From the NCBI GenBank assembly GCA_019873645.1, contig JAIOAX010000021.1:1-64000 (forward strand): DNA of 64,000 bases, in the 5' to 3' direction. The notes under the pieces were generated by a model. The model saw only the letters and a program-made list of their open reading frames with translations. It was not told the origin of the DNA and ran no database searches. This stretch comes from Chloroflexota bacterium (GTDB lineage Bacteria; Chloroflexota; Anaerolineae; B4-G1; SLSP01). The position numbers were made by a program, and so were the translations under genes. Shown piece by piece: positions 8,145 through 29,100 of the stretch (its first letter is position 1; each line of letters starts with the position of its first letter).

Positions 8145-8161
8145 TTTGTATCTCCTTGGGG

Positions 8162-8234
8162 GGTAATGAGTAATCTGTAATCAGGGATTAGGGATTCGTA
8201 ATTCGTAATTCGTTATCCGCCACTCGCTATTCGC
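8162..8234. repeat. ATTACGA/TAATCAG heptamer repeat overlapping a gene end
   Basis: Degenerate 7-bp units (ATTACGA, GATTACA, GCGAATA variants) run from the spacer into the last codons of the oxidoreductase gene. That gene's stop codon (8213-8215) lies inside the repeat. Confidence 0.8.
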
Positions 8235-9247
8235 ACTACGGCGTGAGACTCAGCGCTGGCTACGGCACCAAAGACCATGGCCAGGCTTTTGATGTTGTCG
8301 GTGCAGACGGTTTCCGGCGTTTGACCGTTGCGGACGCACTGCAAAAACTCGCGGATGACGCCGGCATGGCCACCGGTTTTCTTTGGGTCCTCATAAGGGG
8401 GGACTTCAACCGTTTCCCATTCCGAGAAGAAGCCGCCCTTACGGGCCACGACTTGCGCGGTGAAGCCGCTTGCGCCGTCCCAGAGCACCGTCCCTCTCTC
8501 GCCGATGATGCGCCACGCGCCTTCCCAGGTGGTGTTCAGCCCTTCAGCGCACCAACTGCCGCGATACGAATAGACCAGACCATCGCTCATCTCGAAGGTT
8601 GCCACCGCCGAGGCGGCGTGGTCGTACCACGAGCCGGCCGGGTTCCATTCATAGCAGTAGACGGCCTGCGCGTCCGCGCCGCTGAGCATGCGCGCCATGT
8701 CAAAGGTGTGGATCGCCATATCCACCAGCAGTACATGCTTCATGTGGTCGCGGAAGCCGCCGAAGTGCGCACCGATGTAGAAATCGCTGTTGAGGGTGGT
8801 GATGCGTCCCAGAACACCGGAATCCAGAAAGTGTTTGAGGCGTCGGATATTGGCGTCGTAGCGGCGGTTCTGGATAACGGCATAAATCTTGCCCGCCGCC
8901 TGCGCCGCTGCAACCATTTCCTGGGCATGTTCGAGGGTATCGGCCAACGGTTTCTCGCCCAGAACGTGGCAACCGTGACGCAGCGCCGTCAATGTGACGT
9001 CATGATGCGCTTCCGGTATGGTGCAGTCGAAGACGACATCCGGGCGCGTTTGCTCCAGCGCCGTCGTCAGGTCTGTCGTCACCAGCGCGCCTGACCAGTC
9101 GTATTCTTCGGCACGCGCCCGCGCCGCTTCCTCGCGCACATCCACAAACCCGACCAGCACCACACCGGGTATATCTTTGAGCGCCTTGAGCCAGGTTCGG
9201 CTAATGCCGCCGCAGCCAACAAGCAGTGCTTTGAGTGTACGAATCAT
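8213..9247 (-). CDS. Gfo/Idh/MocA family oxidoreductase
   Basis: A 344-residue NAD(P)-dependent sugar or inositol dehydrogenase-type enzyme. The Rossmann motif VGCGGISRTW is at the N-terminus, and the signature EKPLADTLEHAQEMV follows near residue 95. The central part HFGGFRDHMKHVLLVDMAIHTFDMARML carries the usual DxxxH-type active-site region (here DMAIHTFD). Substrate is unknown; its place between GH2 and GH31 suggests oxidation of a released sugar. The C-terminal IASGG and the stop are written in a short-period repeat. Another repeat of the same type abuts the start codon, and no Shine-Dalgarno is visible before ATG 9247. The real C-terminus may therefore have been altered. Confidence 0.9.
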   Translation of the reverse strand: MIRTLKALLVGCGGISRTWLKALKDIPGVVLVGFVDVREEAARARAEEYDWSGALVTTDLTTALEQTRPDVVFDCTIPEAHHDVTLTALRHGCHVLGEKPLADTLEHAQEMVAAAQAAGKIYAVIQNRRYDANIRRLKHFLDSGVLGRITTLNSDFYIGAHFGGFRDHMKHVLLVDMAIHTFDMARMLSGADAQAVYCYEWNPAGSWYDHAASAVATFEMSDGLVYSYRGSWCAEGLNTTWEGAWRIIGERGTVLWDGASGFTAQVVARKGGFFSEWETVEVPPYEDPKKTGGHAGVIREFLQCVRNGQTPETVCTDNIKSLAMVFGAVASAESHAVVRIASGG

Positions 9248-9412
9248 AGGAGTTATCAGTAATCAGTTATCAGTAATCAGTTTTCGGTGATTGGTTGTCG
9301 GCGATTATCGCTTAATCTATCCCGAAAACGGTCAGCGGATTAAGCAGATTGAGCAGATTTATGCGACAATTGAAACTAATCCGTTCAAATCCGTTTAACC
9401 CGTTGACATTTT
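9248..9412. repeat. Composite short-period repeats; inverted copy of the 42.0-kb element
   Basis: Bases 9248-9290 are CAGTTAT/CAGTAAT heptamers. Bases 9332-9410 are a 79-bp composite of AGCAGATTG nonamers and AATCCGTTT decamers. They match the reverse complement of 41999-42077 with about four differences. No gene was found here. The GH31 stop follows within 5 bp. Confidence 0.85.
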
Positions 9413-12400
9413 TTATGCTGGGTTGAGCGCGTCGCTCATAAGGTCTGCTGATTGGAAAGTTACATCGGTCAACAGGTCGCCGGAGGGCGAGAGCAGCGCC
9501 GCGCCGAAGTACCAGAACCGTTGTTTGGGAGTGGCGGTGCTGTGAATCAGCAAGACATTCGTACCGGCGCGCAAGCGTAACGTCTTTGTGAAACGGGTGC
9601 CGTACACAAACAAGCCGTGCACCGAGTTGATGGCGGCTTTGGTGTTTTCGGCAACCTTGACACCGTTTACATAGACCTCCACCGGCGTGTTAGCGGTGAA
9701 GGCAAGCACGGTTCGTTGCGCTTTCGGGCTGATGACGGTCGCCGTCAGGTAGGTCGCCGGCGATTTATCGGCGATCTCATTCCAACGCTCGCGCCACAGT
9801 CGTATGAAGTACGCCCGCTGATAGTTCTCCGTACGCGCCAGGTCCTGCGCGAAGGTCTCCCACGGCAGATCGGCATTGGGATTGCCGGCGGCGTCCAGCA
9901 CATCGGCCGGTTGGAGCGCCAGCTTATCACGGTCATACAGGAGCGCGCGCCAGGCCGGAATCGCCGGGAAAAGAGGGAGGCTGCGAAACTCGCTGTGCAA
10001 CGTGGCGTTGCGCCAGTGCAGGGTCACGTGGGCTTCCCATTGGGTCAACATAATACCGTCGGCGGCAAAGGGCGTGGGAAGAATGTGCGAGACGGTCGTA
10101 TTCTCAAAGCGCACAACCTGCGTCTCGGTCGCGCCGCCGCGATGGAGCATGAAAGTAATTTCGGCGGAATAGGGTTCGCCGTTCACCGGCGCGGCCAGGA
10201 TGACATGGCCCAATTGCCGCGTGGCTTCCTCCGGCGTGCTGTACTGGAGAAAATGCGCAAACGGTCCCCCCAGGCGCGCCGCCAGTTGCGCCAGCATTTC
10301 CGGTCTGGTTGTGGTCTCGACTTTCGCGCGCCACAGGTCTTCGGGTTTCTGAATGTCCAGCCCGCAGCTTTTGCCCAGCAAACACTCAATGTCTGCCTTG
10401 ATGAGCTGCCAGTTGTGTTGTTCTCCCAGGGCGACGATAGGCCCATCGGCGACCGCCGTAACGACAAACGCCTGTGATTTCGGCAATTTGGGAATCGTGA
10501 TATAAACGGAGAGATTTTCAGCGTCGTAACGCCACTCAGCCGGCGCGCCGTTGAGGGTGACTGCTGCCGGCCGGACGCAGCCGCGCAACGTCACGGTATA
10601 ACCGCGCGCATCAGGCAAGGCATCGCAGTGTCCTTCGACGGGTGCGATGCTGACCGTCCACGTGCGTTCATCCGGCTGGTGCGTTTCCATCGCCGTCCAC
10701 TCATATTCCCCACGCAAATATGCCTCGGTGAGGCCATCATCCTCATACAGGCGGAATGTCCCCGCGCCGGGGAACACCATCAGCTCAAGTTGATCGCGAG
10801 GTTGCGCCGCCGTCGTCCCGGATTTCAAATGAGGTTCAGGCTGCGGTGTGAATTCGGGCGCCAGCGGCAAGATGGCGCCGGCCTTCATCAGCATGGGCAT
10901 GCGGCTCAGGTTGCCCGGAATTCTGATCCAGCGTGGCCCGGTAAAAGTTTCCAGCGTCTGGTAATCTATCCACGTCCCTTCTGGAAGCCAGACGACGACA
11001 GAGGCTATGCCCGTCTGCGGATCGGCCGGGGTAACGATGGGCGCCGCAATCATTTGATCGCCGAAGTAGTACTGATAGCGGGTCACGTAAGCGGCGTCGG
11101 CTTCGGGGTGCTCGTAGTACATCGGACGGCACAACGCCAGTCCCGTGTCGGATGTGCGGCGCGCCATTGTATACAGGTAGGGAATCAGCCGATAGCGCCA
11201 GCGGAAAGCGTCCATCGCCACGCGGCTGTACGGTTCCGGGTAGGCCCAGGGACGCCGCTCGGCACGGGGGTCCTTCGTCGAGTGCAACCGCAAGACCGGA
11301 CTGAGCGCGCCAAACTGCACCCAGCGCGCATACAACTCCGGCTCCGTCGCCCCACCCATGTGCCCCCCGATGTCGTGGCTCCACCAACCGTAGGCGACGT
11401 TCGCCGCCGTCGCCGTGAGGTAAGGCTGGAATTGCAACGCCGTCCAGCGGACATAGGTGTCGCCGGAAAAGCCGATGTAGTAACGATGGTTGCCCAGGCC
11501 GCCCCAGCGGCTGTAGAGCATCGGGCGCACGCCCTTGCGCTTGATGTCGTTGAAGTGCAGGTGATTGATCCACGGCAGCGGGTCCAGGCCCTTGACTTCG
11601 GAGATTTCGCCCTGTTGCCAGTCCATCCACCAGAAATCCACCCCGTCATCTTCCATCGGATGATGGATCATCTCGAAGTAGTGGCGGACGTAGTTCTTGT
11701 CGGCGATGCGGAAGGGAACCGGTTGGCGGCTTTCCGGGTCAATGCCCAGCGCCCTGGCAAACTGTGGATAGACTTCCTCGTGGGGATGGACGCCGTCGGC
11801 GGGATGCAAGTTGAGCGTCACGCGCAGGCCCTTTGCGTGCAGCCACTTGAGGAACGCGGGAGGATCGGGAAACAGTTTACGGTTCCAGGTGTAGCCGGTC
11901 CAGCCGTCGGGCGTATGCCAATCCATATCAATCACGAAGACATCCAGCGGAACGTTGTATGCCTCGAATTCGGCCACCAGGTCGCGCAGGTCTTGCTCGC
12001 TGTAGGCCCAGTAGCGCGACCACCAGCCACCGAGGATGTAGCGCGGGATGAGGGGGATCGCGCCGCCGAAGCGCAGATACTCGGCAATGGCGGCCTTGTA
12101 GTCGTGGCCGTAACCGAAGAAGTACCAGTCCTGCAACGCGAAATCCGGGCGCGGCCCCACCCACCCCGCATCATCAAAAATAACATTCTTGCTGTCGTCG
12201 AAGAGCGCCCAACCGGCGCGGGAAACCAGCCCCTCGGCCAGCGCCGCATCGCCCTCACATTCATCGAGCGTGCGCCGTGTGCCGCGCAGGTTTTCCGGAT
12301 TGGGCATGCCGGGGCGCCAGGTCACGGTTTGACCGTTGAGGGTGAAGGTGATGGAAAGGTTGGCGGCGGTAAATTTTCCGTCAGCAGATTGAGCAGATTC

Positions 12401-12691
12401 AGCAGATTGAAGAGTGGAAGCAGGTATGTAATGCACAGAAAGTGCGCCGGTATCTATGAGGAGTGCGCCGTTATCTTCACGCACGGTGAATTGGGGCGGG
12501 CAGTCCACATAGCGCGTGGGGAAGGCGTAGGTGCAGCGATCCTCAAAAATGCCGCGCTCCGACCATTCCAGGCGGAGCAGGCGCGGGGTCAGCACGGTGA
12601 AACGCGCATGGCCGCGCGTCACGACCGCGTCAGGATGGGCGACGGGTTGCCCACGGAAGCGGATGCGTTCGTAGAGTTCAGATGTGGTCAT
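9413..12691 (-). CDS. GH31 alpha-glucosidase/xylosidase with long C-terminal extension
   Basis: A 1092-residue family 31 enzyme; the family mostly hydrolyses alpha-glucosides or alpha-xylosides. The (beta/alpha)8 domain covers about residues 205-560. The probable nucleophile is Asp357 in DFWWMDWQQG and the acid/base is Asp411 in GFSGDTYVRW. VFVIDMDWH near 252-259 is the substrate-binding strand. After the usual C-terminal beta domains there is an extra region (about 740-1092) ending in a beta-sandwich-like part (VEVYVNGVKVAENTK, GTNVLLIHSTATPKQRFW) that may bind carbohydrate. There is no signal peptide. GAGGAAA precedes ATG 12691. Residues 92-104 are encoded by a dispersed repeat. Confidence 0.92.
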   Translation of the reverse strand: MTTSELYERIRFRGQPVAHPDAVVTRGHARFTVLTPRLLRLEWSERGIFEDRCTYAFPTRYVDCPPQFTVREDNGALLIDTGALSVHYIPASTLQSAESAQSADGKFTAANLSITFTLNGQTVTWRPGMPNPENLRGTRRTLDECEGDAALAEGLVSRAGWALFDDSKNVIFDDAGWVGPRPDFALQDWYFFGYGHDYKAAIAEYLRFGGAIPLIPRYILGGWWSRYWAYSEQDLRDLVAEFEAYNVPLDVFVIDMDWHTPDGWTGYTWNRKLFPDPPAFLKWLHAKGLRVTLNLHPADGVHPHEEVYPQFARALGIDPESRQPVPFRIADKNYVRHYFEMIHHPMEDDGVDFWWMDWQQGEISEVKGLDPLPWINHLHFNDIKRKGVRPMLYSRWGGLGNHRYYIGFSGDTYVRWTALQFQPYLTATAANVAYGWWSHDIGGHMGGATEPELYARWVQFGALSPVLRLHSTKDPRAERRPWAYPEPYSRVAMDAFRWRYRLIPYLYTMARRTSDTGLALCRPMYYEHPEADAAYVTRYQYYFGDQMIAAPIVTPADPQTGIASVVVWLPEGTWIDYQTLETFTGPRWIRIPGNLSRMPMLMKAGAILPLAPEFTPQPEPHLKSGTTAAQPRDQLELMVFPGAGTFRLYEDDGLTEAYLRGEYEWTAMETHQPDERTWTVSIAPVEGHCDALPDARGYTVTLRGCVRPAAVTLNGAPAEWRYDAENLSVYITIPKLPKSQAFVVTAVADGPIVALGEQHNWQLIKADIECLLGKSCGLDIQKPEDLWRAKVETTTRPEMLAQLAARLGGPFAHFLQYSTPEEATRQLGHVILAAPVNGEPYSAEITFMLHRGGATETQVVRFENTTVSHILPTPFAADGIMLTQWEAHVTLHWRNATLHSEFRSLPLFPAIPAWRALLYDRDKLALQPADVLDAAGNPNADLPWETFAQDLARTENYQRAYFIRLWRERWNEIADKSPATYLTATVISPKAQRTVLAFTANTPVEVYVNGVKVAENTKAAINSVHGLFVYGTRFTKTLRLRAGTNVLLIHSTATPKQRFWYFGAALLSPSGDLLTDVTFQSADLMSDALNPA
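12381..12410. repeat. CAGATT nonamer repeat inside the GH31 coding sequence
   Basis: Units of the intergenic family (AGCAGATTG, AGCAGATTC, AGCAGATTG) occur in frame within the N-terminal part of the GH31 gene and encode the QSAESAQSAD stretch. Thirty bases is a multiple of three, so the frame is preserved. Confidence 0.8.
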
Positions 12692-13862: not shown

Positions 13863-16800
13863 CTAAAAGTGTACGGCAACTCGCGTTATTTCCCCATCGC
13901 GTACACAGGCAGCATAGGGTGGGCCGATGATTGCGCCGTCTATGGCGACGGTATCACCATTGGCAAAGTGTAACGTGATGGCGCGCGGCTGCATGTCCGC
14001 AGCGAACGTGTCGCGCTTGTGCGGGTTGTGGTAGGTGACGGTGCATCGTCCCAGGAAGGTCGCCGTGACCGTACCGGCGTCGTCAAACAGCCGGCCAGGC
14101 AGCCTGGGTTTGAACACCAGGTGCAACGCGCCGTTCTCGACGAAAAACGGTTGCTCGCCGAAGAACATCGTCGTCCACATGCTCAGGAACTCGGCGGTGG
14201 AGCCGCTGAGGCGCGCCACGAATCCTGCACCGTGCAGCGTTGCATCGGGGTGCGCGCTGCTCACCAGAAACGAGACGTTTTCCAACGGACTGCGCCCGTA
14301 GATCGCCGGGTCAAGAAAGGGGATGAGCGCGGTTTGGGCGTCGGCAAAGAATTCGTCATACAGGCCCGCACGCAGGAGTTCGAGCAAGTATTTGTACTCC
14401 ATGTGTAGCCAGATAGATTCGTTTTCCAGCCAACCCGGCGTGAAGGCGCGCGCACGCCCGATTTCGTGGGATTCATCAGCCAGGGAGGCGTTGATTTTGT
14501 ACATGCCGAGTTGGCGATCATAGAGGGCGCTATGTTTAACCCGCTCATAGAGGGCGCGCGCCTGCGCCGTCCCATCCCCAAGTTTGAGCGCGTGGACGAA
14601 GCCTTCCAGATACAAGGGCAGGACGCGCGGTTCGAAGCGCGTGGCTTTAACATACGGTCGCCCATGGGCGTCGGCGCCGTCAAGCAACGTGTAATCCGTC
14701 ACCGTGTAGGCAAAGTAGGTGGGCGGCAGACCGTCGTTCAACATCAGCGCGCGGTTGATTCCCTGCTGTACCATCTCGGCAAAAGTGGCGAGGACGGGGG
14801 ATAGGGCGTTGAATCCCAGCGTGACCGTTTCACCGTCAATGCCGAAGCGCACCTGTTCACGGTAGGTTTCACGGGCCGTGGCGACGGTGTCCCAGTAGAC
14901 GTAATCGCGATCAGGGTCTTGAGACGACGCCCATTGTCGGCAAGCCTCGGCGATGCCATGCATCAGCACGGCTTGTTCAACCGGTATGCTGACGGCGCCG
15001 TGCGGGTGTTCCACCATCGCTTCCAGCAGGAAACGCAACAGCCGCGCCAGCTCATAGGTCTCGCAGAGCGACGCACCGAACAGCCCCGGCAGGCCGTTGA
15101 GCGCGTCGCACCAGCCCGGCCGGCCTGCCTCCATTTCGATGCCCATACCCCACGGATCGCGGGTGGCGAATTTGGTGAGCGCCAGGGTCAGCAATTTGGC
15201 GAAGACTGTCGCCCGATAGACTTCTCCACGTCCGTGAGCGGTACGCAATAAGTTGGGCGTGGCGGTGCGGGCGGCCATGAGCGCCGCCTTTTCTTCATCT
15301 TCCACAATTGCGCCGTACTGGCGGACTTTACCTGCACCCGCCAGCACATATTTCCGGCTGCGCGGTTGCACAAAAACGGCGCTGTCGAAATAAGGGAGGG
15401 TGGTGTTGAAAAGCAGTGCGTGTTTGCGGTCGGGATAGATCGCCAGGTAGCTTTCCAGAAGATCGAGGTTGTAGAACCAGTGGTCAATCCAATAACCTTC
15501 GCCGAACGTGGCTTCAAAATGCTGTTCGGCCTCGGCCAGCGCCGCCGCAATGAAGGCCTCCGGCGCGACTTTGAGGCCGATGTGACGATCCGCGATGGCT
15601 TTGAGCAAGCCCCCCGGCGTGAAAGGGCGCGCCAGCAACGGCGCGAGCGGCGTCGGATCGTCTGCCAGCGCCAGGATGTTCTCGCGGGCCTCATCCGGCA
15701 AAGTGAAGCGGCTGCCGTTGACCACCAGCGGATTGTAACCGTCAATCTGAATAAGTTCGAGGAATGATAACACATTGAAATCGCCGACCTGTGGATTGAA
15801 CCACACATCACAGCGGCGATTTTGGTTCACGTCGCGGTAATTGCCGTTGCCCTGTGAGTAAGGTTCGGCGGCCAGGAAGAAGGCGTTGTAGTCGCGTTCC
15901 AGGTCGCCGTGCTTGCGCGAATAAATGTGATAGACGCATGGTTTTTCCTTGCTCCCCAGGATCACCGGCCAACCGCCGCGCATCACATTGTCGAGAAAGG
16001 TCTGGCGGCAGTAAGCGTCAAAGAGCGGGTCTGCGGTATGGGTGGCGACTACGTCGGTCAGGTGTTCGACGAGGCGGTTGCTCTCGGCGCGTTTGGCGTG
16101 CAGGTACGCCGCTTGCGTGAGACGTGCTTGTTGATGGTGAATGGTCTCGATGTCGCGGACGTGGCCGATGATGGCATTGAGCGTGAGGCTCTGGCCGGGG
16201 TCCAGCGTCGCCTGCGCCCCACAGAAGCCGCACGGTGTGCGTCCCACGGTGATCTGCCGCTGCGTGCGCAGCGCGTCCAGGGGCTGGGCAAGGAAGCCAT
16301 CCGGCGCGCTCAGAGCCGTGTTGACGCCGAAGACAACGACCGGGTCCACGAACATAGGCAAAAGCGCGCCGTCGTCACCGAAGGCCAGGTAGAAGTGCCC
16401 GGCCTGGATTTCGGCGACTTCCGCCGTATCGCCCGCGCTGGCCTGGAAGCGGTAGAAGGGGATGCCGCGCTCCAGGTTGAAGACGCCCATCCACGCTTCG
16501 AGCGTGCGCCCAATTTCTTTCAATCCCCGGTTGTCCACGCCATAGGGCATCACCCAGGGCATACCATCGAGCATTTCTACCCTTACCGGCGTCGCGCCGA
16601 CGTTGACGACCGTCACCCGGCGCACCAGCCCGGCAAAATGCTCGCCCGGCAACGTGAAGTACAGGACGTCCGTTTGCAAGCCGTGCGCCGGGCTGTGGGT
16701 CTGCAATTCCAGCTCATTCATACCGATGTGCATGGATGGCGTATCCTGAGTCGCCCAGGGAGCAAACGGTTCATAGAAGGTTGTCGCTCCATCGCGGGTG

Positions 16801-17054
16801 AGCTTGAGGAACGTGCGGAAGCCGGTATAGGGTGTACTCTGATAGGCTTTGTTCGCAGGCAAGAACTCCATAATCGGATGGTCCTTGTTCTCAATGCCGA
16901 AGCCGGCGATGGCCTGCCCGCGATTGACGTAGAAGACCCACAACGGGATGCCCAGGGGGCCGGCGATGCCCGGCAGAAAGCTGGCGAACGGGCGCGCGGC
17001 GGCAAAGTTCTCGATGACAAAACGACCGTCAGCGTCAAAAGTGTAGTTTTTCAT
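13863..17054 (-). CDS. GH94-like glycoside phosphorylase/hydrolase ((alpha/alpha)6 barrel)
   Basis: A 1063-residue cytoplasmic protein related to cellobiose phosphorylase-type enzymes of the former GT36/GH94 group. These split beta-linked glucosides with phosphate. The segments YRDVNQNRRCDVWF, GYNPLVVNGSRF, GYWIDHWFYNLDLLESYL and AGRPGWCDALNGLPGLFG are recognisable from long 'cellobiose phosphorylase' annotations of about 1100 residues. The N-terminal 300 residues look like a beta-sandwich, followed by the helical barrel. I could not place the catalytic Asp with certainty. GGAGAG precedes ATG 17054. Sitting between GH16 and GH31, it may process beta-gluco-oligosaccharides released outside. 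It could also be an uncharacterised GH family. Confidence 0.7.
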   Translation of the reverse strand: MKNYTFDADGRFVIENFAAARPFASFLPGIAGPLGIPLWVFYVNRGQAIAGFGIENKDHPIMEFLPANKAYQSTPYTGFRTFLKLTRDGATTFYEPFAPWATQDTPSMHIGMNELELQTHSPAHGLQTDVLYFTLPGEHFAGLVRRVTVVNVGATPVRVEMLDGMPWVMPYGVDNRGLKEIGRTLEAWMGVFNLERGIPFYRFQASAGDTAEVAEIQAGHFYLAFGDDGALLPMFVDPVVVFGVNTALSAPDGFLAQPLDALRTQRQITVGRTPCGFCGAQATLDPGQSLTLNAIIGHVRDIETIHHQQARLTQAAYLHAKRAESNRLVEHLTDVVATHTADPLFDAYCRQTFLDNVMRGGWPVILGSKEKPCVYHIYSRKHGDLERDYNAFFLAAEPYSQGNGNYRDVNQNRRCDVWFNPQVGDFNVLSFLELIQIDGYNPLVVNGSRFTLPDEARENILALADDPTPLAPLLARPFTPGGLLKAIADRHIGLKVAPEAFIAAALAEAEQHFEATFGEGYWIDHWFYNLDLLESYLAIYPDRKHALLFNTTLPYFDSAVFVQPRSRKYVLAGAGKVRQYGAIVEDEEKAALMAARTATPNLLRTAHGRGEVYRATVFAKLLTLALTKFATRDPWGMGIEMEAGRPGWCDALNGLPGLFGASLCETYELARLLRFLLEAMVEHPHGAVSIPVEQAVLMHGIAEACRQWASSQDPDRDYVYWDTVATARETYREQVRFGIDGETVTLGFNALSPVLATFAEMVQQGINRALMLNDGLPPTYFAYTVTDYTLLDGADAHGRPYVKATRFEPRVLPLYLEGFVHALKLGDGTAQARALYERVKHSALYDRQLGMYKINASLADESHEIGRARAFTPGWLENESIWLHMEYKYLLELLRAGLYDEFFADAQTALIPFLDPAIYGRSPLENVSFLVSSAHPDATLHGAGFVARLSGSTAEFLSMWTTMFFGEQPFFVENGALHLVFKPRLPGRLFDDAGTVTATFLGRCTVTYHNPHKRDTFAADMQPRAITLHFANGDTVAIDGAIIGPPYAACVRDGEITRVAVHF

Positions 17055-17202: not shown

Positions 17203-20200
17203 TTAGTGATTGCGCATCACCAGCGGCAGGTAGATCTTTGTCAGTTCCCTGACTTTTACTTCATCCAGATAGAACGCGCCATGGCTGTCCGCAGGCATCC
17301 AGAAGCCATAGCCCCACATCTCGGTAAGGGTCAGGCCATCGTTGGGCGCGCCTTCCGCTTGCTGGGCGCTGCGGACGAAGCGATTGAAGGGCAGCGTCAC
17401 CTGCTTCCAGCCGGTGAAGTTGTCGGTGAATGTCGTCTCGAAGCGTTCCGGCGCTGTCGGCGCCTGATAGACGCGCACGTAGTCCACGAGCATGTTCTGC
17501 GGGAAGACCGAGGTCTCGTCCGGGTAGCCCGGCCAGTAGCCGCCGACCGCGACGTTCATAATCAAGAAGAAGGGATGATCGAAGACCCACGGTGCGCCGG
17601 CGGGAATCATGCTCTTTGTCAGTGTGAAGTACTGCGTGTCGTCAAGGTACCAGCGGATTTCGTCCGGCTCCCACTCGATGGCGTAGACGTGGTAGTCGTT
17701 GGTGAGCGGTTCGGTATAGGTGTACCCGCCGCCGATGCCGCTGCCGCCGGAGTACCCCGGCCCGTGGACGGTGCCGTGAACGATGTACGGCTCCTTGCCG
17801 ATGTTCTCCATGATGTCAATCTCGCCGGAGTTCGGCCAACCGACTTCGCTGAAGTTGTTGCCGAGCGACCAGAACGCCGGCCAGATACCCTGTCCGTAGG
17901 GGATCTTCAGCCGCGCTTCGGCGCGCCCGTACATGAAGTCGAACTTGCCCTTCGTCAGCAAGCGGGCCGAAGTATATGCACACGTACCGGGTTCGTTGGC
18001 CGGGGTGTACGCACACTGATATTCCGTGCCGGTGTATTTGGTCGCCGTGATGACCAGGACGCCGTTGCCGTTCAGCGCGGAGTTCTCGCGCTTGTCCGTG
18101 TAATACTCATACTCGGCGTTGCCCCAACCGTGTCCGCCGATGTCGTAACCCCACTTTGTCTGATCGGGTTCTGCGCCGGCCACGCCATCGAACTCATCCT
18201 GCCAGGTGAGAATCCAGCCCTCCGGCCCGGGATCGGGCGCCTTGTTATCAAGGATTTGTACAGTCATCGGCGTGCCGGTGTTCATCCCGTAGAACCAGAA
18301 ACTGAAGCCATCTTTGGCCGACCAATCCTGGCTGTTGCCGAAACTGCGGATGAAGCCGCCGCCCGATTGCTGAATGGCCTGGACGGCCTGCGCAGGCAGG
18401 TGATAGGTGACGCTGAGCACGGTGTTGACCGGGTCTTGTTCGGGTAGGGCCAGCGGCGAAGTGCTGGGAATCTCCTGCGCAGTCACGGTGACGCCGCCGG
18501 TCGGTACCAGATCGGCAGGCACGCCGCGCTCGAAGTCGTCAATCATCCCCGGTATGGGCACATCCTGCACGAAGACCGGCGCGGTGGTACGCCAACCGAG
18601 GGCGGCGCCGGTAGGATTCGAGAGGGCGATGGAGAACTGCTCGTTGCCCTCAACTTTGTGATCGTTCAACAGAGCCATCTGGATGGTCTTGACGGTCTCA
18701 CCCGGCGCAAACGTGAGCGTCCCCGTGACCGACGCGGTGTAATCGTGTCCGGCTTTGGCGGTTCCATCGGTAATTGCGTATTCCACCGTTGCTGTTGCGG
18801 TGTCGGTGCGATTGAGCATCACACGCACATTGACCGTATTGCCCTCCGACGCCGCGTAAGCGTAGGTGGAGAACTGCACACGCAGCGGCATGTCGCCCGG
18901 CTCGCGCTGGCCGTAGATTTCAACCTGATCCAGATAGAGCGTCTGTTGCCCCGTGCCGGCGGGCAGTCCGAAGGCGTAGCCCGACACCTCCGTCAGATTG
19001 AGGCCGTCGTTGGGCGCGTTGCCGGGTTGCCAGTCGGTGCGACGCTTGAAGATGGAGAAGGGCAGGTGGAACTGTTTCCAGCCGGTATAATCATCGGTGA
19101 TGCGGGTGTAGTAACGTTCCGCCGAATCACCGGTGGAACCCAGCGCCTGGTTGTCGAAGATTTCCACCTGGATCTGCTTGCCGGTGTTGTTGCCGTAGAG
19201 CCAGAAGCGCAGGCCGTCATACGCGCTCCAGTCCTGGCTCACCCATTCATTTTCATCGGCGAAGGCGTGGGTGAAGCCACCCCACGCGCCGATGTTATAC
19301 GTGGCGGCAAGAACGGCGTTGTCGGTCGGGAAGCCTGGAACCTGCGTGAGTGGTGTGGTCGCCGTCAGGATCGGCATATCGGCGGCGTTGCTCCCCCAGC
19401 GCGTCAGGCCGATTTCGTTGCCGAAGGCGGTGCGTCCATAAGGCAGACCAGCCTCGAAGTTCTCAACGAGTTGGATATCCCGCGGGGTATCGTTGTCCAG
19501 GATGGTCAACAGCGCCGGATTGTTCTTCCCGCCGAGCATGATGGTGCTGTTGCCGGGATTGGAAAGCTCCAGGTACACCGTTTCGGGCAACTCATAGTCA
19601 TTATCGTCGAGGATGGGGACACTAAAGGAGGTTTCGGTTTGTCCAGGCTGGAAGACGAGGTTGCCGCTGACAGAGATATAATCCGCATCGGCAGTCGCCG
19701 TGCCATCGCCGTCCAGCGTCTTGTAGGTGACGGTGACCGGATAGGCAGCGGCCGGACTGATCGCTACCGTGATGGTAGCTGCATTGGCACCCTCGGAGAC
19801 GGTGTAGGTCGGACTGGTGAAGTCTACTGTAGGTAACGGTGCCTCCTCCAGTCCACCAAATAGAGTGACCTGGTCTATGTAAACCGTACCGTTGGTACCG
19901 CTAGGCAGTGCGAGCGCGTAGGCCCATACCTCGGTGAGAGTGAGGCCATCGTTAGGTGCGCCACTGGGCTGCCAGGCATCGCGGAAGAACGCCCCCCAGG
20001 GGATACTGATGTGTCGCCAGCCGGTGCTCGTGTCGGCAAACTCGTAGGCGAAACGTTCCGCCGTGTCACCTGGACCGCTCTTGTTGTCACTGAGGATGAC
20101 ACGGAACGTCGCTCCGCCACCCAGACCCTTGAACCAGAAGCTCAGACCATCGTAGGCGCTCCAGTCTTCGGGCGCGAGGTTGTTGCCGGTGCCCGCGCCC

Positions 20201-20994
20201 CAACCGACGCTGGTGTAGGCGATGGCAAGCACGTGATTGCCCGTTAGCCCCGGCACGGTATCATCGGCAGAGGTAGTCGTGGCAATGCTGGTGCCTGAAC
20301 CGTAGTCACCGTACTGAAACCACGTTGAGGGTAAACCGGCCTCAAAATCGTCTACAAGATGTAGTTTGAATAGCGCCACCTGATCTATGTAAACCGTACC
20401 GTTGGTACCGCTAGGCAGTGCGAGCGCGTAGGCCCATACCTCGGTGAGAGTGAGGCCATCGTTAGGTGCGCCACTGGGCTGCCAGGCATCGCGGAAGAAC
20501 GCCCCCCAGGGGATACTGATGTGTCGCCAGCCGGTGCTCGTGTCGGCAAACTCGTAGGCGAAACGTTCCGCCGTGTCACCTGGACCGCTCTTGTTGTCAC
20601 TGAGGATGACACGGAACGTCGCTCCGCCACCCAGACCCTTGAACCAGAAGCTCAGACCATCGTAGGCGCTCCAGTCTTCGGGCGCGAGGTTGTTGCCGGT
20701 GCCCGCGCCCCAACCGACGCTGGTGTAGGCGATGGCAAGCACGTGATTGCCCGTTAGCCCCGGCACGGTATCATCGGCAGAGGTAGTCGTGGCAATGCTG
20801 GTGCCTGAACCGTAGTCACCGTACTGAAACCACGTTGAGGGTAAACCGGCCTCAAAATCGTCTATGATGTGTACCCTGGTCGTCGGTGCATTAGAAGACA
20901 AATTGCTTTTCGCGGCGGCCGGTGCGCCCAACGACAGTGCCAGCAAGGAAACCAATGTGAGAACACGTAGCCAATAAAAAAATTTGGTATTCAT
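17203..20994 (-). CDS. Secreted multi-domain GH16 beta-glucanase, catalytic domain nested in a CBM-like domain
   Basis: ATG 20994 with GGAGGAG is the start; upstream codons look non-coding. A signal peptide covers the first about 28 residues. Two almost identical CBM11-like domains follow (about 38-210 and 210-380; start DDFEAGLPSTWFQYG). Next come a Calx-beta domain (VDFTSPTYTVSEG), a third CBM-like domain, a second Calx-beta domain, and a fourth CBM-like domain that is split. The GH16 domain begins at LTWQDEFDG and ends at VRVYQ. Its catalytic motif EIDIME has Glu1058 and Glu1063. The protein ends KIYLPLVMRNH. GH16 enzymes cleave beta-1,3/1,4-glucans, laminarin or agar-type galactans; substrate here is unproven. 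It is the likely extracellular first step for the locus. Confidence 0.92.
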   Translation of the reverse strand: MNTKFFYWLRVLTLVSLLALSLGAPAAAKSNLSSNAPTTRVHIIDDFEAGLPSTWFQYGDYGSGTSIATTTSADDTVPGLTGNHVLAIAYTSVGWGAGTGNNLAPEDWSAYDGLSFWFKGLGGGATFRVILSDNKSGPGDTAERFAYEFADTSTGWRHISIPWGAFFRDAWQPSGAPNDGLTLTEVWAYALALPSGTNGTVYIDQVALFKLHLVDDFEAGLPSTWFQYGDYGSGTSIATTTSADDTVPGLTGNHVLAIAYTSVGWGAGTGNNLAPEDWSAYDGLSFWFKGLGGGATFRVILSDNKSGPGDTAERFAYEFADTSTGWRHISIPWGAFFRDAWQPSGAPNDGLTLTEVWAYALALPSGTNGTVYIDQVTLFGGLEEAPLPTVDFTSPTYTVSEGANAATITVAISPAAAYPVTVTYKTLDGDGTATADADYISVSGNLVFQPGQTETSFSVPILDDNDYELPETVYLELSNPGNSTIMLGGKNNPALLTILDNDTPRDIQLVENFEAGLPYGRTAFGNEIGLTRWGSNAADMPILTATTPLTQVPGFPTDNAVLAATYNIGAWGGFTHAFADENEWVSQDWSAYDGLRFWLYGNNTGKQIQVEIFDNQALGSTGDSAERYYTRITDDYTGWKQFHLPFSIFKRRTDWQPGNAPNDGLNLTEVSGYAFGLPAGTGQQTLYLDQVEIYGQREPGDMPLRVQFSTYAYAASEGNTVNVRVMLNRTDTATATVEYAITDGTAKAGHDYTASVTGTLTFAPGETVKTIQMALLNDHKVEGNEQFSIALSNPTGAALGWRTTAPVFVQDVPIPGMIDDFERGVPADLVPTGGVTVTAQEIPSTSPLALPEQDPVNTVLSVTYHLPAQAVQAIQQSGGGFIRSFGNSQDWSAKDGFSFWFYGMNTGTPMTVQILDNKAPDPGPEGWILTWQDEFDGVAGAEPDQTKWGYDIGGHGWGNAEYEYYTDKRENSALNGNGVLVITATKYTGTEYQCAYTPANEPGTCAYTSARLLTKGKFDFMYGRAEARLKIPYGQGIWPAFWSLGNNFSEVGWPNSGEIDIMENIGKEPYIVHGTVHGPGYSGGSGIGGGYTYTEPLTNDYHVYAIEWEPDEIRWYLDDTQYFTLTKSMIPAGAPWVFDHPFFLIMNVAVGGYWPGYPDETSVFPQNMLVDYVRVYQAPTAPERFETTFTDNFTGWKQVTLPFNRFVRSAQQAEGAPNDGLTLTEMWGYGFWMPADSHGAFYLDEVKVRELTKIYLPLVMRNH
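19873..20864. repeat. Two identical 482-bp direct repeats (510-bp period) in the GH16 gene
   Basis: Bases 19873-20354 and 20383-20864 appear identical over 482 bp, offset by 510. They encode two copies of the CBM11-like domain. No silent difference was seen, which implies a very recent duplication or gene conversion. Confidence 0.93.
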
Positions 20995-21574
20995 TTGACT
21001 CCTCCATTCAAAAACTGATTTAATTGAGTAAGATAGGGTAATCAATATGCGATATGGTATATGCTGCACCTCCTCAAGGGAATAGTGTTTGAATTTAGTT
21101 CATTAGGGATATTTGTGAGTCTACTGAAAAAACTAAAGATCTCAGCGCAGAGTCGCAGAGGGCGCAAAGATTTTTATGTAGGATTCAATAAAATTAAGTC
21201 TTTCGCGTTTCATTACTAATTTTATTGATATAAACTTGAATTTTTCTCGGCGTTCTTTGCGTCTCTGCGGTGAATTAGACTTTTTTCAGGAGAGTCATTT
21301 GTAGCTCGACAATGTTAGATGTGCTCTTTCACCACAGAGTGCACTGAGATCACTGAGTTTTCCTGTGTTTTCTCTGCGTCCTCAGTGGCCTCTGCGGTGA
21401 ATTTAACATTGTCGAGGTAGTAATACACATAATATCGCAGATGCTGAATAGTCCCCCAATCTTATCGGCCGCAAGTCAAAAATCCGTTAAAATCCGTTCA
21501 ATCCGTTGACACCTCCCACAGCCGCAGGTCAAAAATCCGTTAAGACACTCCCACGGCTACAGGTCAAAAATCCG
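20995..21574. repeat. Repeat-rich intergenic region upstream of GH16
   Basis: No gene was seen. Bases 21130-21420 carry several variants of a CTCTGCGxCTCTGCGGTGAA-type repeat, in both orientations. Bases 21465-21600 carry three spaced copies of a CAGGTCAAAAATCCGTTAA unit followed by AATCCGTTNAATCCGTTGAC decamers. The last copy runs into the LacI gene. The GH16 promoter must lie here but I cannot point to it. Confidence 0.7.
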
Positions 21575-22624
21575 TTAAAATCCATTCAATCCGTTGACAA
21601 CCTCTCGCGTTGCCGCCCCGCACGATTGACGGATGACCAGGCTGGTCTCCATCATAATCTGGCGTGGTGGGATGGGGCCGTTCTTGATGACCTCAAGCAG
21701 CAGTTCCACAGCTTTGATACCAAACTCGTGGATCGGTTGATGAACGGTGGTCAATTGAGGTTGGGCAATCATCGCCGGTGGCAGGTCATCGTAGCTGACA
21801 ATGGCGATGTCTTGGGGGACACGCAAACCGGCCTCATGGATGGCCCGCAGCGCGCCGAGCGCCATCGTATCCGAAGCAATAAAGACGGCTTCGGGTTTTT
21901 GGGGGAGCAAGCGCTGCATGGCCTGGTAGCCGCCGATTTCAGTGAAATAGCCTTCAACAATCAGGCTTTCATCTATCGGCAGGTTACAATCTTGTAACGC
22001 CTGACAATAACCAGCTTTGCGGTCAAGGGCAGCGGTCGTTTCCATCTCACCGGCAATCGTAGCGATCCGTTGATGCCCCAGTTTAACCAGGTGCATGACC
22101 CCCGTATAGGCCCCTGTTACATTATCCACGTCTACATAACTTACCTCGCCAGGATGGAAAGGTCGTCCTGCCACCACCACCGGCAAATTGCTGGTCAGCA
22201 AACGCATAATCAGATCATCCCCAATTTGCCCCGCCTGAACAACGACGCCATCCAGCAATCCTTTGCGCGAAAGGCGCGGATACAGTTTTTCCTCATCGGC
22301 TGCGGTTTGCAGGAGAAACAGCGCTAGGGTGTAATCATAATCATTACATGCCTGGGCGACCCCCTGCGTGAGACGGGGAAAGTAAGGGTCGTTGAACAAC
22401 ACTTCCGTGCGGCGTGGCAAGACCAATCCGATGACGCGCGATTGCTGCGAAGCCAGTGAACGGGCAACCGGATGGGGGCTATAGCCGGTTTCGGCGATAA
22501 CGCGCTGCACACGCTCGCGCACTTCGGGGCGCACATTGGGGCCGTTGTTGAGCACCCGTGAAGCAGTGGTACGGGAGACGCCGGCGCGTCGGGCAATTTC
22601 GTCCAGGGTCAGATTGTCAGGCAT
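21575..22624 (-). CDS. LacI family transcriptional regulator
   Basis: A 349-residue sugar-responsive repressor. The HTH is LTLDEIARRAGVSRTTASRVLN, followed by the hinge YSPHPVARSLASQQS and a periplasmic-binding-protein-like sensor domain (VIGLVLPRR, DGVVVQAGQ, FIASDTMALGAL, IVSYDDLPPAMIAQPQLTTVHQP). The sensor ligand is probably a sugar released by the neighbouring glycosidases. A perfect LacI-type palindrome and a good promoter lie directly upstream, so autoregulation is likely. The last residues NGLNGF and the TAA stop are written in the AATCCGTT repeat, so the C-terminus has been replaced or extended by repeat DNA. Confidence 0.95.
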   Translation of the reverse strand: MPDNLTLDEIARRAGVSRTTASRVLNNGPNVRPEVRERVQRVIAETGYSPHPVARSLASQQSRVIGLVLPRRTEVLFNDPYFPRLTQGVAQACNDYDYTLALFLLQTAADEEKLYPRLSRKGLLDGVVVQAGQIGDDLIMRLLTSNLPVVVAGRPFHPGEVSYVDVDNVTGAYTGVMHLVKLGHQRIATIAGEMETTAALDRKAGYCQALQDCNLPIDESLIVEGYFTEIGGYQAMQRLLPQKPEAVFIASDTMALGALRAIHEAGLRVPQDIAIVSYDDLPPAMIAQPQLTTVHQPIHEFGIKAVELLLEVIKNGPIPPRQIMMETSLVIRQSCGAATREVVNGLNGF

Positions 22625-23101: not shown

Positions 23102-26100
23102 TTAGTTATTCCTGAGGACCAGCGGCAAGAAGATAAAACACTCGCCCGCGTTGATCTTGATCACAACGTCGTCGGTATCCACTAAGCCGCCTGTATCGGT
23201 CACTGTGAGCGTGAACGTGAGCACGTCCGTACTTGAGGGCGCGGTGAACGTCGTCACGCTCACATCCGCCGTGAACGTGACGGGCGCGCCACCCGTCTGC
23301 CGCCAGAGATACGCTAGCGCGTCGCCGTCTGGGTCGGACGAGCCGGAGCCGTCGAGCGTGACTACCGCGCCCGCCTGCACGGTCTGATCGTCGCCCGCGT
23401 TGGCGGTGGGCGCGTGGTTGACCGGCTCGGCCTGCACGGTGATGACCACCTCGTCGGTGCCGGTGAGGCCGCCGGTGTCGGTGACGGTCAGCGTGAAGGT
23501 GAGCGCGCCCGCGCTCGCCGGTGCGGTGAACGTCGTCACGCTCACATTCGCCGTGAACGTGACGGGCGCGCCACCCGTCTGCCGCCAGAGATACGCCAGC
23601 GCATCGCCGTCCGGGTCGAACGAGCCAGACCCGTCGAGCGTAACTACCGCGCCCGTCTGCACGGTCTGATCGTCGCCCGCATTGGCGGTGGGCGCGTGGT
23701 TGACCGGCTGCGCCTGCACGGTGATGACCACCTCGTCGGCGCCGGTGAGGCCGCCGGTGTCGGTGACGGTCAGTGTGAAGGTGAGCGCGCCCGCGCTCGC
23801 CGGTGCGGTGAATGTCGTCACGCTCACATTCGCCGTGAACGTGACGGGCGCGCCGCCCGTCTGCCGCCAGAGATACGCCAGTGCATCCCCTTCTGGATCA
23901 TACGAACCGGACCCGTCAAGCGTGACTACCGCGCCCACGCTGACGGTCTGATCCGGCCCGGCGTCCGCTACCGGCGTCCGGTTGACCGGCAACGTGGTCA
24001 CGGTGATGGTGAACGTTTGTGTGACACGATTGTCTCCGTCGGTCACATGGAGCGCGACCGGATACTCTCCGACCGCTAACGGCGTGCCGGCGAGCGTGGC
24101 TGTGCGGCTGAAGTCCTGCGTCAGGCTGAGCCAGGTGGGCAACGTGGAAGCTGTGATGGTCAACACGCCGCTGGAGTCGGCATCATCTGCTATGACGGTG
24201 TGAGTGTAGGGGATGCCGACTGTGGCGGTGATTTTGGGCGCGTTGGTGAACTCCGGCGGGTCGTTATCTGCGCTGACGGCGACCATAACGGCGGCGGTAT
24301 CGGTGAATGTGCCATCGGAGATGATGTAGGTGAAGGTGGCGGTGTAAGCACTCAGGCTGTTGACCGGGGTGTAGGCGCACGTCGCCAGGAGGGTATCGCA
24401 ACCGGCGGTGCCGAACGCGGGTTGGGTCCAGGCAACCAGGGTCAGCGGGTCGCCGTCCAGGTCATCGTCGTTGTTCAGGACGGGGATGGCGACCGGCGTA
24501 TCTTCGTCTGTGGCAACCATGTCATCGGCGGCATGGGGTGGGTGTAGTGCGTCCTGGACGGTGATGGTGAAGGTCTGTGTTGCGCTGCTTCCCTCGTTGT
24601 CCTCGACGCGCAGCGTCACGCCATGCTCTCCGATGTCTTCCTGGAGCGGTTTCCCCACCAGCGTCGCCCGTCCGTTGTGGTAGTCGTAGAGCGTCAGCCA
24701 GGTCGGCGAGATCGGCGCGGTGATGGTGAGGGTGTTCGTCTCCACGTCAACGGCGATGATGCGGTAAACGTAGAATCTGCCTTCGAGCGCGTCGGTGGGC
24801 GGCGTGCTGACAAACTCCGGTGGGCTATTGGCGTCCACCGCGAGGACGAAGCCGTCTTCCGCCGTGGACGTGCCGTCGCCGACGGTGAGGGTGATGCTGG
24901 CCGTGCCGGATAGCCCCGCCGTTGGGGTGAGCGTGACGGTGCGCGTGATGCCGCTCCCGCCGAAGGTGATGTTGGTCAGAGGCACAAGGCTCTCATCCGA
25001 CGACGCTTTGTCCAGCGTCAGCAGGTCGAGCGGCGTGTCGGGGTCGTTGACAAAGAAAGGAACGGTGAGCGGCACGCCGTCGTCGGCGGCCTGGTTGCGC
25101 ACGTTGGAGATGAAGGGCGGGTCATCCATAGCCGCGACGGCGACGACGACGGTCGCCGTATCCTCCAACTCGCCGTCGGAAGCGACGTAGTCGAACGTGT
25201 CGGTGTAGGCGGCGGTGCGGTTGGCCGGCGTGTAGATGACGACATCCCCGCTGATGACGGCGCTGCCGTAGAGCGGCGAGCTGACATGGGCGATGAACAA
25301 CGCGCTGTCAGGATCGCTGTCGTTTGCCAGGACCGGAATGCCACGCGGCGTGCGTTCGTCCGTCGCGGCGGTGTCGTCTCTGGCGACGGGCGGGTCGTTG
25401 ACCGCCGCAACAGTAACGGTGAATGTCTGAATCGCCGCCGCGCCGAAACTGTCCACCGCGCGCAGCGTGACGGGATGATCGCCCACATCCCCGGCCAGGG
25501 GACGCCCGGACAGGACGGCGTGCCCGTCGCCATAGTCAACGAGGCGCAGCCACAGCGGTCGCACCGGCGCGGCAATGCTCAAGGCATCGCCGTCGCCGTC
25601 TACTGCACGGATCGCATAGGTATAGTCAATGTCCTCAAATGCCGTGGTGATCGGCGCGGTGTCGAACACGGGCGCGGTGTTGGGGATCACGGTCAGCAGA
25701 AAACTATCAGCAGCGGCGGCATGGCCGTCGCCGACGGTCACCGTGATGAACGCCGCGCCGGACAACGCCGCCGTGGGGGTGATGACGACCGTGCGCGCGG
25801 CGCCGCTCCCGCCGAAGGCGATGGCATTCAACGGCGTGAGCGCCGGGTTCGACGTGGCTTTGTGGAGCGTCAGCGTGTCGAGGGGCGTGTCCGCATCGTT
25901 CACGGTGAAAGCGATCGGAGCGGTGGCCACGCCCTGGCGGGTCTGCCGGTCGGCGATGTCGGAGATGGTGGGGGGATCGTTGATAGCCGCGACGGCGACC
26001 GTGACGTTGGCCGTATCGGTGAGCGCGCCGTCGGAAATGGTGTAGGTGAAGGTATCGGTGTAGGATGCTGTCCGGTTGGTGGGCGTGTAGACGACGACGC

Positions 26101-29100
26101 CGCTGCTGATGACCGCGCTCCCGTAGAGCGGGAGGCCGACTGCCGTCAGGGAGAATGGGTCGCCGTCGGGGTCGTTATCGTTGCCCAGGACGGGAATTAC
26201 CCGCGGCGTCAGCTCGTTGGTGTTGGCGAAATCGTTTCGGGCGATGGGCGCGTCGTTGACGTTGGCGACGGTGATGACAAAAGCCTGCACCTCCCCCGTT
26301 CCTGCCTCATCTGTAACTCGCAGCCTGACGTTGTGATCGCCGACATCGGCGTTGAGCGGCAGGCCGGACAGTATCGCCGTGCGCGTCGTCGGTTGCGTCA
26401 GGGTCAACCAGGCGGGTTTGAGCGCAGCGACGATGGTCAGTGCGTCGCCCGCGTCGAGGTCGGTGGCGACGACGGTATACGTGTACATGGCGTCTTCCGT
26501 CGCTTCCGTGACCGGCGCGCTGACGAACTCCGGCGGGCTGTTGACCCCCGCGCCCACCGCCAGCGCAAAAGCGTTATCGCGGGACGAGTGGCCGTCGCTC
26601 ACCGTGACGGTGATGAGCGCCGTGCCGGTCATCCCGGCGGTCGGCGTGACAACGACGGTGCGGTTCGCGCCGCTCCCGCCGAACGCGATGTTCGCCAGCG
26701 GTACGAGCGTCGTATCCGACGAGGCCGCTCCCAGCGTCAGCGTGTCCACAGGCGTGTCCACATCGCCCACGGTGAAGGCAATCGGGCCGACGGGTACGCC
26801 GGGATCGGTGCGCTGGTTGGGGATGTCCGAGATGGTGGGCGGGTCGTCGTTCGCCGTGACCGGGATGGCGACGACGCCCGTGTCGCTCAATCCACCTGTG
26901 TCGGTGACGATGTAGGTGAGTGTGTCGGTGTAGCTGACCGTCTGGTTGGTCGGCGTATAGATGAAACGACCCACGCCGAACAACGTAGCCGTCCCACTGA
27001 GCGGCGCCGTCAGAATGGCATAGGTCAGCGCGTCGCCGTTACGATCGCTGGCGGGGAAAGGCGCGTTCCGGGAGGCCTCCTCGTTCACGGGCGGGAGTGT
27101 GGCGTCGTCGGCCGTTGGCGCGACGTTGAGCACCGTCGCCTGGACCGAACTGTTGTTATTGCCAGCGTTGCCGTCGCGGCGGGCGGTGATTTCCGCCGTG
27201 TTGGTGAAGACGCCCGCCGCCAGCGGCGTGCGCAGCGTTCCCCTCACCGTGATGACGCCGCTCATCCCGGCGCCCAAATTCTGGACGCGCCAGACGTACC
27301 ATGTTCCCGGCAGCCGCGTCACGGTGATGCTACTGGTGTATGACAAATCGCCAATCTGCCCTAAAGGCAGCGTGTCGGTGATGATCACGCCCGACGCCGC
27401 GACGCTGCTGACGTTGGTGAATGTGAGCGTATAGGTAATGACGTCGCCGGGCGCGGCGCTGGATGGCGTGACTGCCTTGGCGATGGCGACGTCGGGTGGG
27501 ATAGGGACGTTGGACTCGTAGGCGCCCACGTCGCAGGCGGTGTTGAACGGGCGGGGCGCGCCGCGCTGATCCACATCAATGCCCGGCACGCACAAGCCGG
27601 CGTCAATCGCCGGGCTGCCGGGCTGCAAGGCGTAAACGAGGGTGTCGCCGCTCTTGGACAGCGGCCCCAACAGCGGATCGGTATTTTGCTGGTCACCGGT
27701 CGCGGTGAAGCCGCAGGTGTCGCCGTCTTCCAGGTTGTAGCCGTTGGAAACGACTCCAGAGTCGCAATTGGACGGGCTGTTGCCGGCAAGCAGCGTGTTG
27801 TGCAGCGTCACAGTTGCACCACTCGCGCTGTAGATGCCGCCGCCCTCGTCATTCGCCACGTTACCGGCGATCGTTGTGAAGGTCAGCACAGACGTCGCTC
27901 CGCTTCCATTGTCAATACCGCCGCCGTCGCCGCCGTCGGTTTCGTTCTGGCCGATGGTGACGTTGGTTAGAGCTAACACGCCGCCCCTATTGTAGACGCC
28001 GCCGCCGTAAAGGGCCGTGTTGGCGGCGATGACAACCCGCTCCAGGGTCGCGCTACCAGCGTGAATTTGTATCCCGCCGCCCCCAAGGCCGGACGTATTG
28101 CTGAGGATCTGCGTTTCTCTCAATGTCGCGTTGCCGCGGTATACATGTATCCCACCGGCATAGGAACTGGTTGTGTTGTTGATGATATCCACCTCGCTCA
28201 AAATCATCAAACCGTCGTCCAGGCATATCCCGCCGCCAATCCGGCTCGTGTTGCTGAATATGACCGTACCGGTCAATACTGCGGCGCCTTCGCCGACATA
28301 CACTCCACCGCCGTAGTCGGCGGAGGTGTTATAAGAAATCCCCGTTCCTTCTATGGTTGCGCTGCCGGCGCCGATGTACATTCCCCCGCCATTGGAGTCT
28401 GCTGTATTGCTGAAGATGCGCGCCGCGCCGATATCCACATAGCCATCCGCGGCGTATAACCCGCCACCGGAACCGCCGGCCGTGTTGTAAGCGATCTCGA
28501 TATCCTCCGCCGTGGTGCTGCCGCCAGAGACATAGATCCCGCCGCCATAGGTATCAACGGCGTTATAGGCGACATCTACAGCGTTCAAAGCCGCATCGCC
28601 AACGTCTATGTACATTCCGCCGCCATAGTCGGCGGTATTGCCGGTAAAGCGCGTCTTGACCAACGTCATATCGCCGACCTCGAGATAGACGCCGCCGCCC
28701 CTTTGTCCGGCGACATTGCTATCAATCATCGTCGTGCGGATCGCGGCGTCGCCATCCCCGATGTATACCCCGCCGCCGTAGTCCCCGGTTGTGTTGCTCA
28801 CGATAGATGTTTCGGTCAGTGTAATACTGCCGGAGCCGACATACACACCGCCGCCGTTAGCGCCGGCGGTGTTGTTCGAGAGCATGACTCTGATCAACGT
28901 GGCGTCGCTGTGGTCGCCGTCGTAAGTGCTGACAAGAATTCCCCCACCGTCGTTATCTGCAGTATTGCCGGAGATCTCGGCATCGGTCACCGTTGCGCTG
29001 CCGCTTTGGATGTAGATTCCCCCACCTTTGTAGCTTGAGGTGTTGCTGAGAACGTGGGTTGCGCTCAACGTTATACTTCCATCCACGAGATAGACCCCAC

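Follow-up and report, generated by a model that had tools for sequence, protein, structure and literature searches.

A complete GH16 domain in a hairpin loop of a CBM11 domain in a probable secreted beta-glucanase of Chloroflexota

CBM11 domains fold as a jelly roll with a single cleft that contains a tyrosine (PMC5686792). In GH10 xylanases of the Xyn10C/Pm25 type, CBM4 domains are inserted in the catalytic barrel (PMC7848910). Here we describe a Chloroflexota protein in which the fourth CBM-like domain is split by a whole GH16 domain, as an earlier note on the same DNA had proposed. The open reading frame, domain order, quoted peptides, and coordinates given in that proposal proved right. 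A literature search for a catalytic domain inside a CBM11, or for a GH16 insertion in a CBM11, found no precedent, which is weak evidence because few subscription journals were covered.

The gene lies on the minus strand of the window (the whole 64,000-nucleotide stretch that was analysed) at 17206-20994, where a single stop-free frame encodes 1263 aa from an ATG at 20994; a GTG at 21069 is an alternative upstream start. Across this protein, Pfam found CBM_11 in five stretches (2.6e-100), Calx-beta in two, and Glyco_hydro_16 (8.1e-28). From a signal-like N-terminus, the order on the minus strand is intact CBM11 domain 1 (20371-20868, aa 43-208), intact CBM11 domain 2 (19861-20358, aa 213-378), a Calx-beta domain (19495-19836, about aa 387-500), intact CBM11 domain 3 (18910-19485, aa 504-695), a second Calx-beta domain (18565-18888, about aa 703-810), the N-terminal half of the fourth or host CBM11 (18238-18552, about aa 815-919), GH16 (aa 927-1177), the C-terminal half of the host (17245-17454, about aa 1181-1250), and a YLPLV C-terminus. 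Pfam placed CBM11 domains 1-3, both Calx-beta domains, and GH16, with AF2 and Foldseek also supporting domain 3 and Foldseek also supporting GH16. The product is probably a secreted multimodular beta-glucanase.

Domains 1 and 2 (19861-20868, minus strand) are near-identical, reflecting either recent tandem duplication or homogenisation, and similar near-identical pairs occur in relatives (L017, L038, L043). The C-terminal KIYLPLVMRNH (17206-17244, minus strand) resembles a YLP-type motif, with a weak match to NCBIfam NF050076 (E 0.2). In one homologue (L018), a hydrophobic stretch followed by RRRR takes the place of the YLP-type end.

The N-terminal half of the host ends in ILDNKAPDPGPEG and the C-terminal half starts with ERFETTFTDNFTGWKQV. 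The enzyme between them, which the earlier note had placed at about 17450-18235, spans 17464-18216 (minus strand). Unbroken copies span the same point with an N..AERF loop of about 7-11 residues (NKSGPGDTAERF, NQALGSTGDSAERY), whereas the host has about 260 residues there. When the same architecture was sought in other Chloroflexota, it was complete in 38 records from at least 11 families; 36 distinct proteins among these were used for comparisons.

We built a profile from 14 intact CBM11 domains only, with no split copies. In the window protein, this profile matched twice: before GH16 at model positions 5-137, a match that runs past the junction into the enzyme (59.0 bits, 9e-19), and after GH16 at 124-193 (76.2 bits, 5e-24). 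A two-piece match flanking GH16 was present in 36/36 distinct relatives, and in nearly all of them the pieces meet at about 118/119 of the model. The downstream piece starts at about 118-129, and the upstream piece often runs weakly into the N-terminus of GH16. The C-terminal half also scored 42.6 bits against Pfam PF03425, for which the cut-off is 27 bits. Chance resemblance of this half to CBM11 is ruled out by the profile scores.

In all 36 distinct proteins, the host CBM11 is a non-contiguous polypeptide with a GH16 stretch of about 260 aa between its halves, and the complementary profile matches identify the two halves as one homologous CBM11 unit. The claim that the enzyme was inserted in a loop of a binding domain stands, and sequence comparison confirms GH16 as a complete domain in one hairpin loop of the fourth CBM11. 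The joins are short, with about 7 aa on the N side and 3-4 aa on the C side, and are conserved across the phylum. The junctions share the pattern ..(L/I)xDNxx.., followed by GH16 and, in most of the 36 proteins, ..VYQAxDTAERF... Because these short joins are kept phylum-wide, the orientation of GH16 relative to the host is likely fixed.

The AF2 model of intact CBM11 domain 3 has a pLDDT of 93.4 and a pTM of 0.89, with the adjacent strands 104-111 and 123-130 flanking the hairpin loop. Its best Foldseek matches are the CBM11 of Clostridium thermocellum, CtCBM11 (6r31/6r3m/1v0a; 1.2e-9, TM 0.82 on target). The split region was modelled from an alignment of split orthologues and free GH16s that had no rows of intact CBMs. 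In that model, strands 99-106 and 373-380 flank GH16 at homologous places, in agreement with the 104-111/123-130 hairpin of the intact domain. Block pLDDT is 76-90 over residues 371-420; the model has a mean of 80.4 and a pTM of only 0.69, and the first and last host strands fall below a pLDDT of 70. Foldseek returned GH16 alone among the matches listed for this model. We infer that the two halves would pack as one jelly roll. The halves might instead not be one fold, with a truncated CBM11 half before GH16 and an unrelated or partial module after it as remnants of a failed recombination, as the low confidence of the terminal host strands and the indirect case for packing would allow. However, in nearly all 36 proteins each half supplies what the other lacks, and both are conserved across at least 11 families and subject to purifying selection; we consider this origin very improbable.

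Split orthologues are present within the genus and family, on contigs of Caldilineales and Anaerolineales, and across the class, and the phylum has them in further classes as well (G093, G269, G039). In the CBM tree, one branch (SH-aLRT 99, by a quick method) separates 36/36 split CBMs from the rest, the pattern that a single insertion would give. The GH16 tree requires four changes, and two free-standing, lipoprotein-like GH16s (L050 and L051) sit inside the nested group. A CBM11 remnant was looked for in both and none was found. Possible explanations for these two are escape of GH16 from its host, a second event, or long-branch misplacement. Values of dN/dS are 0.07-0.28 in both host halves and 0.06-0.15 in GH16, indicating purifying selection.

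The genome is a draft and domain 2 repeats domain 1 almost exactly, so two genes or domains might have been wrongly joined in assembly or annotation. Against this, the frame in the window is single and stop-free, and placement on one tree branch together with purifying selection on both halves argues that the arrangement is not an assembly accident. We give this reading almost no credence. An assembly artefact is ruled out by the same junctions in 38 records, many of them from independent assemblies.

We also searched class-wide with intact CBM11 for other inserts at the same hairpin. Among the matches listed, lone C-half pieces (about 119-193) occurred only in genomes with a nested GH16. A tblastn search of plasmids matched 274 records, of which none reaches 80% coverage of the query; those listed cover GH16 only. 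In viral contigs, GH16 was found only without a CBM.

The earlier note had further suggested that nesting would lock catalysis rigidly to substrate binding, and this part of its claim is weakened by the state of the host cleft. We take Tyr53, Tyr129, and Arg126 to be sugar-cleft residues of CtCBM11, and mapped their positions onto 36 hosts and 50 intact copies. By this distant alignment (about 19% identity), the Tyr53 position is aromatic in 49/50 intact copies and 0/36 hosts, and the Tyr129 position in 26/50 and 0/36. The Arg126 position holds Lys or Arg in 37/50 intact copies, whereas no host (0/36) has either and thirty of the thirty-six have Ser. Core positions are kept in hosts and intact copies alike: Trp65 (33/36 and 49/50), Trp113 (36/36 and 50/50), and Pro119 (35/36 and 44/50). 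With the CtCBM11-type cleft residues absent in 36/36 hosts and the core retained, the host is probably not a working CBM11-type binder, and substrate binding is more likely a function of the intact CBM11s upstream. The hosts also share a conserved motif of their own, F-x-R-S-A-x-Q-P-x-G-A-P-N/D-D-G-L. Loss of the classic cleft is compatible with a new binding surface, which the host may have acquired.

Under a different reading, the host still binds beta-glucan, and nesting keeps the cleft of GH16 aligned with the chain that the host has bound. The joins are short and conserved, the host carries a conserved surface motif, and the loop that received GH16 is next to the Asp99 position, another cleft residue of CtCBM11. 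However, none of the 36 hosts has an aromatic at Tyr53 or Tyr129 or a basic Arg126 position, whereas most intact copies from these same proteins do. We therefore regard continued binding by the host as possible but rather unlikely.

Four genomes of one family (f9) carry a further insertion, in which a segment of about 95-150 aa also breaks the N-terminal half of the host, at another loop. Two kinds of insert occur and look unrelated to each other: a helical-looking segment of ~150 aa in L088 and L094, and ~100 aa with a calcium-loop-like DxNxDGxxD in L096 and L099. Neither kind matched a credible family in Pfam or NCBIfam. These second insertions show that the host tolerates inserts, which fits a scaffold role. 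With slightly more belief than doubt, we propose that CBM11 was captured as an insertion-tolerant scaffold, which would have given up sugar binding after GH16 entered, become a cradle holding the enzyme in place, and, in a single lineage, accepted a second, different domain in another loop to yield a doubly nested host.

The nested enzyme itself resembles known laminarinases. Foldseek matched the full-length GH16 fold to 2hyk (5.8e-33, TM 0.95 on target), and Foldseek alignments with 2hyk, 3atg, 3azx, and 2vy0 show 52-54% identity. The catalytic motif GEIDIME is at 17806-17826 on the minus strand (aa 1057-1063), and a motif of this E-x-D-x-x-E type is present in 35/36 distinct nested proteins. 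Two cysteines (aa 997 and 1008, about 17971-18006) are invariant in the nested GH16 clade, whereas only 20% of the free GH16s used for comparison have them; they perhaps form a disulfide.

The adjoining gene (13863-17054, minus strand) encodes a GH161-type beta-1,3-glucan phosphorylase (9qqk, 3.6e-285; 9h8v, 6.6e-286), with weaker similarity to GH149. GH161 homologues also adjoin the nested GH16 in G002, G007-G011, and others. This neighbour points to beta-1,3-glucan as the substrate, and the nested GH16 is probably an endo-beta-1,3-glucanase cutting algal or fungal beta-1,3-glucan. Upstream is a LacI-family regulator (21575-22624, minus strand), a homologue of which lies beside the gene in L036 and L037. 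The locus would most naturally be read as a beta-1,3-glucan (laminarin-type) utilisation cluster. Upstream of the LacI gene, 23102-31669 (minus strand) encodes a surface protein of 2855 aa in which Ig, cadherin-like, and PKD domains are numerous. On the far side of the GH161 gene, the region 5679-12691 (minus strand) codes for enzymes of GH2 and GH31 and for a Gfo/Idh/MocA oxidoreductase.

The explanation that we favour, with reasonable though not high confidence, begins with one event in which GH16 would have entered the beta-hairpin loop between two strands of the CBM11 jelly roll, then been inherited and spread within Chloroflexota. The host CBM would afterwards have lost its sugar cleft while its fold was retained under selection. 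It would now serve as a structural cradle, presumably rigid, that grips GH16 at both ends. Cradle and enzyme would come last in a C-terminal position, after a string of CBM11 and Calx-beta domains in which the intact CBM11s upstream would supply targeting to the substrate, with the whole gene belonging to a putative beta-1,3-glucan cluster.

This architecture is a natural test case for asking whether holding an enzyme by both ends in a rigid host alters its catalysis, stability, or processivity. It is also a natural model for fusing enzymes into CBM loops by insertion. If annotation relied on domain hits alone, the C-terminal half would be miscalled a fragment and the host a functional binder.

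Compared with CtCBM11 of C. thermocellum Lic26A-Cel5E (1v0a, 6r31, 2lro), the intact copies share both fold (TM 0.82 on target) and Pfam family, and the host halves are homologous to these intact copies. CtCBM11 itself is continuous, with a functional beta-1,3-1,4-glucan cleft, whereas in the host GH16 breaks the domain in two and the cleft aromatics are missing. The laminarinases 2hyk, 3atg, 3azx, and 2vy0 have the same catalytic motif and about 52-54% identity over the whole domain, but only the enzyme described here is nested in a CBM. Xylanases of the Xyn10C/Pm25 type likewise have a discontinuous architecture conserved within a bacterial group (PMC7848910), with the nesting reversed: there the CBMs are inside the enzyme, and here the enzyme is inside the CBM. 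CE20 esterases also have nested domains, and there too the accessory domain is the insert, in an SGNH hydrolase domain, rather than the host (PMC12313940). The literature cases that we found thus place accessory modules inside enzymes, while the Chloroflexota proteins show the reverse, conserved over a phylum and with an apparent change from binder to scaffold.
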